Made by a program: the position numbers and the translations under genes. Below are positions 12,001-17,066 of a DNA stretch of 64,000 nt, one piece after another. This DNA comes from Luidia sarsii. Lineage: Eukaryota; Echinodermata; Asteroidea; Paxillosida; Luidiidae. Position 1 is the stretch's first letter. Every line of letters starts with the position of its first letter. Below the pieces are notes generated by a model. The model ran no database searches. It was not told the origin of the DNA and saw only the letters and a list, made by a program, of their open reading frames with translations. The stretch spans positions 15,696,549-15,760,548 of the forward strand of contig OX465111.1 in NCBI GenBank assembly GCA_949987565.1, in the 5' to 3' direction.

Positions 12001-15000
12001 AATGATTTTATTGAGGAAGACACAAATCCTGACTTGAATTTTTTTCCTCCTCTTCTCCCCATCCTTCCTTACCCTTCTCTCCATCTCCTACTCTTCAACT
12101 CCATCTCCCTCATCACTCTCCTCCCCTCTCCAACTCCTTCACCATTTTCCCCTCCTCTCTGCCCCTCTTTTTTTTATGTCTACCTCCTCTATTTTCCTCT
12201 GCCTCGTCTCTCACTCCCTCCTCTCCCACTTAATCCTCTCACACGCTCTCCTCTATTTCCTCCTTCCCAATTCATCTTCATCTTCTTCTTTCTCCCCCTC
12301 TTCCTCTTCCTCTTCCTCCCCCTCTTCATCCACCTCCCCTCCTCCCCTCCACCACTTCATCCCCTTTCTCCTCCCTCTTTTTCCTCCCTTCCTCTTCCTT
12401 TCCTTTTTCTCCACCTCGGCTCCCTCCATCCCCACCGCCCCAACCCCTTCCTCCTGGTCAGGTCCTGGATGCTGGTAAGCTGATAGAGTTTGACCAGCCC
12501 CACACCTTGCTGCAGCAACCAGGTAGCATGCTGAGCAAGCTGGTTGAGCAGACAGGGAGGGTGGAAGCTTTGCAGCTGGCTGATGCTGCTCTCAGACACT
12601 TCAAGCCAGGCAGGGTGTCTGGCATAGAGATCACCGTGGAGGGGTGAGAAAGAGAGAGTATAAAAGCATGCTTTGACAGTTCTCAGAACTCCAACTAAAC
12701 ATTGTCATCATTATCTTCACCCAATGATTGTGTGTTTTTATATTCATGTGTCATTATCATTTAGTGTCATCATTATTTTGGTTGATACATGTATTATCAT
12801 CCTCCCTGCAGTTGCCATTGTCATTCGTACTTTTATTGCCATCATCCTTATTCCTCTAATCCTCTTTATCCTCATTCTCTTTCTCCTCACCCTCCTCCAA
12901 AATCTCATCCTCATCATCCTCATTCTCCTCATCCCCCTAATCCTCTTTATCCTCCTCATCATTCTCATCCTCCTCACCCTCATTCTTCTCATCCTCCTAA
13001 TCCTCTTTATCCTCCTCATCATTCTCATCTTCATCCTCATCCTCCCCCTATTCCTTATCTTTCTCCTCATCCTCCCCATCCTCCACATCCTCATCCTCCT
13101 CCCCATCCTCCCCATCCTCCTCATCCTCCCCATCCTCCCCATCCTCATCCCTCTCCTCCTCATCCCTCTCCTCCCCATCCTCCTCATCCAACCCCATCCT
13201 CCTCATCCTCACCTTCATCCATATCTATTTCATCCACATTGCCCATTTTTTTTCTCTGTACTATTTTATATTTTAAAAGTACTATTAAGTTACATCCACA
13301 TCGAGTTGCTGCAGGAGCCTTGTCTGGTGCAATAATGTCTCAACAGTGCAAATATCTTGAAAGAATTCAGAGCACCATTTAAAATAATCTGTGCCCTCTT
13401 TAACAAAAAGACATTTGTGATATACAAAAATGTTGCAAACTGCTTACTGACTAAAATTACCAAAATGCAAATCTTAAAATTTAGTGGGCCTGAGGTTTCG
13501 ATCCTAGCAGGACCTTTCTCTCTGAGAAAGGTCCTGCTAGGATCGAAACGTCAGGCCCACTAAATTTTAACAAAGACATTTGAATGGTTTTACGCAACTC
13601 CTATTTTACAATTTAGTTATTTATTATGTTTATTTATGGATTTATTTTGTTTCATTTCTAATGTAGTTATCTAATTGGTTTATTTTTGAAAATAGCTTTT
13701 AAACCTGGCTTTCTATACTTTTGTACCCTGTTTTGGAGATTTTTAATAAACCATGCATGAAATTGTCATTTCCATTGCTGTCATAACTGTCATCCTTGTC
13801 ATTAGCATCATTGCCAATCATTGTAGTCGCTGGTTTTAACATTGTCAGCATTATCTTTGAAACCATTGTCAGTTGCATGATCATGCCTGTCATCGTTGTC
13901 ATCACTATCATTGCCGTCATCATTAGATATTTAATCATCATCATAGCCATCAACCTCTTCATGGTCATTGCTGTCATTGTCATCGTGGCTATTGTCACCA
14001 TCGCGGTCGCTATCGTCAACATGGCTACTGTCATCGTTGCCATCATTGCCATCATGGCCATATAATCATCATAGTCACCATCATCAATGTCACCATGGTC
14101 ATCGTCACAAAGATGTTGGCCACTATTGTCATCATTGCCATCATGGTCATTATGGCCATCATAGTCATGGTCATCATCATTAATGTCATCATGGTCATCG
14201 TCACCATGATGTTTGCCACTATTGTCATCATTGCCATCATGGTCATTATGGCCATCATAGTCATGGTCATCATCATCAATGTCACCATGGTCATCGTCGC
14301 CATGATGTTTGCCACTATTGTCATCATTGCCATCATGGTCATTATGGCCATCATAGTCATGGTCATCATCATTAATGTCACCATGGTCATCGTCACCATG
14401 ATGTTTGCCACTATTGTCATCATCAGTATCGTTGCCCTTTGATAGCTTCTTAGTGACTGCTAGGCTTTGTTTGTCTTGTATAACTAAAGATACCAGCAGC
14501 AGCTGCAGCAGTGGGGAGCCAATGCAACCGGAAGACAAACGGAATCCATTGGAGTGCAGGTAAGAGACAGTTGGGTCACATGGGCCCTTTTCCAAAATCC
14601 GGCTTAGGCTTTGGCTCCGGCTTCGTCTCTGTTATCCAACAGCTGATAACACGTGTTGGAGTTCTTTGTTGAAGATGAAGCTTTGGATTCCTTTTCAAAA
14701 TCGTTCAACAACGAAGCCAAAGGCCTCCCGTTTTCATGCCTTGTACTTAAAATTGGATGAAAGAAGGAAAGACAAAGCCTGAGCCTAAGCCTGGTTGCTG
14801 AAAAGGGCTTAAATTTATTGGTTGTGCTGACTGTTTTTAACCAACTACTGTGACATTGGAAGCAGAAAATCTATTTCCACTATCGTTGTTCGTTGTTGCC
14901 TGTGTTGGTCACACATGAATGCCTTCACTTTGATTGGCACAGAAATGTATGGTGTACTCTATAATTCTTCAGGTGTGGTAGGCAGTTTGCATGCTGTCTT

Positions 15001-17066: not shown

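Follow-up and report, generated by a model that had tools for sequence, protein, structure and literature searches.

The locus examined here raises the question of whether the PDZ scaffold, which mammalian ABCC4 (MRP4) meets on separate proteins, has been built into an ABCC4-like transporter of the starfish Luidia sarsii, and what such a domain would bind if it has. The earlier note on this DNA reported a transporter that reads in frame into its own PDZ domain and proposed that it could cluster with itself or recruit partners directly. We analyzed the same 64,000-nucleotide stretch of genomic DNA (the window), deducing splicing in L. sarsii from the sequence and taking related proteins from database predictions. 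The observation is confirmed in that transporter and PDZ domain are predicted to form one gene and one protein; the proposed function is upheld in part.

Gene structure and the reality of the join

The ABCC4-like gene lies on the forward strand, where 22 exons between 639 and 17066, joined by splice sites, give one open frame of 1118 aa with a single terminal stop, in agreement with the earlier claim that all exons in the window join without interruption. The window holds the 3' part of the gene, with TMD1 and the start codon upstream of base 639. NBD1 and the start of the linker are encoded by exons 1-5 (639-728, 1326-1517, 2192-2373, 2905-3001, and 3143-3328), the linker and TMD2 by exons 6-12 (3899-4060, 4524-4622, 5942-6149, 6573-6652, 7022-7172, 7764-7994, and 8652-8752), and the end of the TMD2 region and NBD2 by exons 13-17 (9384-9578, 9944-10099, 10628-10717, 11141-11313, and 11771-11876). 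Exon 18 (12462-12643) completes NBD2, begins the tail and ends in a phase-2 donor of moderate strength; if its intron is retained, the frame reaches a TGA at 12645-12647. Behind a weak acceptor, exon 19 (14490-14559; phase 2 in, phase 0 out) encodes a conserved linker peptide, YQQQLQQWG and onward. Exons 20 (15422-15574; 153 nt) and 21 (16106-16312; 207 nt) are both phase 0-0, the first encoding the initial half of the PDZ domain with a GFGF carboxylate-binding loop and the second the remaining half, with Tyr at position alphaB1, and a Pro/Thr-rich linker. The terminal exon 22 (16821-17066) encodes a Ser-rich tail that ends in DTKL before the TGA at 17064-17066. The tail junctions 12643/14490, 14559/15422, and 15574/16106 and this stop codon had been placed correctly before; a fourth junction, 16312/16821, is added here.

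Pfam detected ABC_tran in two stretches, ABC_membrane (PF00664, 139 bits), and one PDZ domain in the partial product. The joined product contains GPVGSGKS and LSGGQ in NBD1 and GRTGAGKS and SVGQRQ in NBD2, which we take to be Walker A (GPVGSGKS, GRTGAGKS) and signature (LSGGQ, SVGQRQ) motifs, and the layout of two NBDs with TMD2 between them is present. Of the solved structures, ABCC4 gave the highest score with the 894-residue ABC part (973 bits), followed by ABCC2 (721), ABCC5 (697), and ABCC1 (681), and on this resemblance the transporter is classified as ABCC4 (MRP4) type. ABCC4 has no TMD0 and a single N-terminal TMD1; alignment of the first NBD1 residue in the window with residue 425 of the Asterias protein is consistent with such a short MRP. 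When 12 relatives were compared, identity over the ABC part was 78% with Patiria, 72% with Asterias, 67% with Acanthaster, and at most 61% with the other nine.

The donor at the end of NBD2 had been described as strong. Splice sites were scored with a weight matrix derived from the 17 introns that precede this one in the gene. Of their donors, 14 exceed the 4.5 bits of the donor at 12643, and all 17 of their acceptors exceed the -2.7 bits of the acceptor at 14489, making 12643/14490 the weakest junction by DNA evidence alone. It is upheld because the protein is conserved across it: the end of exon 18 (...LTVEG) is conserved in Patiria, the peptides spanning the junction (TVE-GYQQQLHNWG in Patiria, TVD-GYQQQIQQWG in Asterias) can be aligned with the window, and the Patiria protein (P0078) reads LTVEGYQQQLHNWG where it aligns with the window across this junction. 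Around the second and third tail junctions the sequence can also be aligned, and conservation is lower around the last (16312/16821). The window product aligns with Asterias rubens P0001 (1550 aa) at 68% identity over 1143 columns, an alignment that crosses the junction and the PDZ domain and reaches an identical DTKL end. By codon usage, exons 20-22 score positive in the frame used, and both alternative forward frames score negative; exon 22 is also positive in one reverse frame, and exon 19 is too short to be informative.

The sequence gives no support to the idea that the PDZ exons have a start of their own. In-frame stops stand just upstream of exons 19 (14485), 20 (15419), and 21 (16097), no in-frame ATG occurs between any of these exons and the stop upstream of it, and the tail has its first methionine within the PDZ domain, after the GFGF loop, such that a separate start could be supplied only by a further, unseen exon. 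The join is accepted as real because there is no ATG for a separate PDZ gene and the same join is found in protein records of other species.

The 1.8-kb intron 18, inspected by eye at 12700-14450, is dense in simple repeats, both pyrimidine-rich and CAT-type, and contains an AATAAA at 13745; a short, intron-retaining transcript ending at 12645 is therefore conceivable. Two further regions of the window drew attention. At 21234-22683 on the reverse strand, two open frames match the carboxypeptidase regulatory domain (PF13620) at 32.1 and 21.2 bits, neither reaching the cut-off of 32.3, and a carboxypeptidase-like gene seems to lie there, downstream of the ABCC4-like gene and on the opposite strand. 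A forward-strand open frame at about 56070-56150 matches Cupin_8 weakly, at 19 bits and under the cut-off, and is reminiscent of a KDM8-like exon.

The PDZ domain, the terminal ligand, and their partners

That the phase-0 pair, exons 20 and 21, encodes a PDZ domain is borne out by a PF00595 match of 51 bits (cut-off 23.2) covering profile positions 3-81 of 81 and product residues 927-1005. Because both exons are phase 0-0, insertion or skipping of this two-exon module leaves the frame intact; the bounding phase-0 introns are the usual mark of exon shuffling, by which the module could have entered. The domain is 70% identical to its Asterias counterpart and 66% identical to that of Patiria. Nine fusions were available for comparison, namely the window product and the eight predicted proteins described below. 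The carboxylate-binding loop (x-hydrophobic-G-hydrophobic) is GFGF in eight of them, the window included, and GYGF in the ninth.

In the literature on PDZ classes, as excerpted, His at alphaB1 reads Ser or Thr at ligand position P-2 (class I) and Tyr reads Asp or Glu (class III; PMC4704001, PMC7138185), a single-residue assignment that is a rough rule. The class I His is found in none of the nine fusions and in all five comparison PDZs (DLG4 1-3, PDZD2, and a MAGI-like domain). The class III Tyr is found in four fusions (window, Asterias, Patiria, and Ptychodera); the other five have Pro (Strongylocentrotus purpuratus, Lytechinus pictus, and Diadema setosum), Thr (Diadema antillarum), or Cys (Glandiceps). 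To judge from these residues, the ABCC4 PDZ looks able to bind C-termini and does not look tuned to its own Thr-Lys-Leu end.

That end, DTKL, is a class I PDZ ligand that went unmentioned in the first description of the locus, and the two sides of a PDZ interaction, domain and C-terminal ligand, are united in the predicted product. DTKL is common to the proteins of the window, Asterias, Patiria, and D. antillarum; the ligand was therefore apparently kept when the PDZ domain was added in front of it. Among the best 120 of 7758 relatives, 71 end in ETAL and 87 fit the pattern [ST]-x-[LVIFMAC]. The Glandiceps end (TTIL) also fits, bringing the fusions that combine a PDZ domain with an [ST]-x-hydrophobic end to five of nine (window, Asterias, Patiria, D. 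antillarum, and Glandiceps), and the ends of S. purpuratus and L. pictus (both LSGN), D. setosum (LLRD), and Ptychodera (VELL) lie outside the pattern. Two proteins without the PDZ domain, the sea cucumber protein P0109 (DTQL) and P0112 (ATQL), have kept the ligand, and Apostichopus P0111 (MESY) has neither element.

We regard it as reasonably probable that this ABCC4 product, with its PDZ domain and ancestral ligand, acts as an adaptor whose two ends serve different proteins. By its kinship with ABCC4, the pump would export organic anions as well as cyclic nucleotides. Separate scaffolds of the NHERF/PDZK1 type would hold its DTKL tail, as in mammals, and its own PDZ domain would take hold of another partner by the C-terminus or by an internal finger; in starfish this partner would probably present an acidic or otherwise non-class-I motif. 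The transporter would become a two-ended link in a membrane complex, beyond a mere client of scaffolds, and skipping of exons 20 and 21 would yield an isoform lacking the PDZ domain in which the frame and the DTKL end are kept.

It is unlikely, in our view, that the PDZ domain instead binds the DTKL end of the next transporter, head to tail, or that the protein's own tail docks back and hides the domain. Such self-clustering would be served by the co-occurrence of PDZ domain and [ST]-x-hydrophobic end in five fusions, and the VELL end of Ptychodera, with Tyr at alphaB1, fits the class III rule; but Thr at P-2 usually pairs with the His that all nine domains lack (excerpts of PMC4704001 and PMC7138185), S. 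purpuratus, L. pictus, and D. setosum keep the domain without such a tail, and P0109 and P0112 keep the tail without the domain. Self-clustering is weakened because the class I His is absent throughout and because domain and ligand are not coupled across species, so that a role as adaptor for other partners appears likelier. Of the earlier suggestion of a scaffold built into the transporter, the in-frame domain stands, direct recruitment of partners is favored, and self-clustering is not. In Ptychodera flava (P0117), VELL follows shortly after a PDZ domain with Tyr at alphaB1, the only fusion in which the simple rule would allow self-binding (in trans).

Distribution and origin of the fusion

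The query for relatives was the latter half of the Asterias protein, and the best 120 of 7758 matches were examined. This extension to related invertebrate proteomes, which the earlier note had advised, turned up at least eight predicted ABC-PDZ fusions besides the window: PF00595 occurs in eight of these 120 ABCC4-like proteins, all from echinoderms or hemichordates. They come from the starfish Asterias rubens (P0001) and Patiria miniata (P0078), the urchins S. purpuratus (P0105), L. pictus (P0107), D. antillarum (P0099), and D. setosum (P0114), and the hemichordates Ptychodera flava (P0117) and Glandiceps talaboti (P0120, a 'low quality' model). Among the 12 of the 120 placed in Ambulacraria, the eight fusions stand beside four proteins without the domain, those of Acanthaster (P0094) and Apostichopus (P0109 and P0111) and P0112, which was placed in Ambulacraria by the tree, where it groups with Apostichopus. 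A protein search with the PDZ region found Asterias alone, though seven further fusions had surfaced in the second-half search, which marks it as insensitive; for this reason, and with the best 120 of 7758 examined, restriction to Ambulacraria holds for the listed matches only. A search with the Asterias tail listed 77 proteins, in which Pfam recognized Asterias itself and no other ABC fusion; the remaining matches were mostly bird PDZD2, with one MAGI-like protein (P0027) and one weevil protein (P0077).

In a midpoint-rooted tree of the ABC core (22 rows, comprising the window and 21 of the 120, with three long-branched outgroup rows), the 13 ambulacrarian rows, window included, form one clade (support 100/99) that contains all nine PDZ-bearing rows. 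The presence of the domain requires three state changes on this tree, for example one gain and two losses, and one early gain with later losses would be the simplest reading. A tree of PDZ domains alone (27 rows) did not recover the nine ABCC4 PDZs as one clade, the two changes being forced by the branch starred in that tree, and placed a long-branched PDZD2 fragment beside Ptychodera. When four long rows (PDZD2_1, PDZD2_4, PDZD2_5, and Cylas_1) were dropped, the nine formed one clade with weak support (82/78); PDZD2b (P0076) stood outside both PDZ trees. The domain fusion appears real and, if a single gain holds, ancient.

The domain is not indispensable, as Acanthaster P0094 and the sea cucumber proteins lack it. 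Acanthaster planci P0094 keeps the tail that follows the PDZ domain (44 aligned residues of the window tail, 50% identical), which points to a lost domain, skipped exons, or a defective model and not to primitive absence. Its second half also has an extra stretch before the conserved RSPVFSHTT segment, and it may therefore be a poor gene model. The Acanthaster protein bears on a further alternative, one that we judge quite unlikely, in which the main product lacks the domain, the isoform with PDZ being minor or confined to certain tissues. Consistent with that alternative, the Acanthaster model preserves the following tail in the absence of the domain, and skipping of exons 20 and 21 would carry the frame from exon 19 to exon 22; however, the domain is as well conserved between the window and Asterias as the 70% identity given above, and the listed Asterias, Patiria, and urchin entries include it.

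That two adjacent genes, one for ABCC4 that ends at 12645 and another that encodes the PDZ domain, were wrongly joined is scarcely credible, since the in-frame TGA directly after the exon 18 donor, the AATAAA within the 1.8-kb intron, and the low 12643/14490 splice scores are set against conserved junction residues, the lack of in-frame ATGs before exons 19, 20, and 21, and gene models of eight other species that hold the same fusion. A separate PDZ gene was rejected on account of the missing ATGs and these other fusions.

Returning to the adaptor, a bolder history may be offered tentatively, as possible but somewhat doubtful. Before the split of echinoderms and hemichordates, ABCC4 would have gained a PDZ domain by exon shuffling, inserted between NBD2 and its own PDZ ligand, to become a self-scaffolding exporter. 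Class I scaffolds would hold one end, and the domain, its specificity changed (class III-like in starfish), would bring a signaling partner directly to where cyclic nucleotides are exported. If this is true, loss of the domain by exon skipping or gene loss, as in sea cucumbers and Acanthaster, would have made the transporter a plain scaffold client again.

Relation to known transporters and PDZ domains

In mammals, separate PDZ scaffolds tie MRP4 to receptors and channels, CFTR and GCC among them, and its ETAL end is reported to bind NHERF1-4 (excerpted text of PMC12510010). ETAL is also reported to bind an MPP-family PDZ domain, apparently MPP1 (a table row in PMC7662862), and SNX27 is reported as a further partner of vertebrate ABCC4/MRP4. 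A lineage with the adaptor inside the pump is a natural experiment on the role of such scaffolds. In the stalk cells of the larval hydro-vascular tube of Patiria miniata, ABCC4 is reported to be a target of FGF (PMC10170166); the term PDZ is absent from the text of that paper. If the larval gene is the PDZ-bearing one, deleting the domain during development would make its effect on localization and signaling directly visible.

Searches of an open-licence library turned up no description of an ABCC-PDZ fusion, and none appears in the excerpted text of PMC10170166, PMC2581485, or PMC7662862. The earlier statement that no ABCC protein with a PDZ domain has been described agrees with these searches, but public databases hold at least eight predicted ones; the architecture is readable from public predictions and apparently unstudied.

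The eight predicted fusions share the layout of the window, an ABCC4 core with one C-terminal PDZ domain, and differ in linker length and in their ends: those of starfish and D. antillarum finish in DTKL, the other three urchin proteins have no ligand, and in the hemichordate proteins a long linker leads to a domain at the extreme C-terminus. By sequence, the nearest solved PDZ domains are those of DLG4/PSD-95, InaD-like, GRIP, and MAGI proteins. The aligned DLG4 and MAGI-like domains have the class I His at alphaB1, whereas the ABCC4 domains have Tyr, Pro, Thr, or Cys. The PDZ domain of nNOS, class III in excerpts of PMC4704001 and PMC7138185, shares its alphaB1 Tyr with the three starfish domains and Ptychodera, a likeness of that residue alone. 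Vertebrate ABCC4/MRP4 belongs by sequence to the same transporter family and has the same kind of C-terminal class I ligand; the vertebrate entries among the best 120 of 7758 are mostly about 1320 aa long and lack PF00595, whereas in the starfish protein a PDZ domain stands between NBD2 and the ligand.
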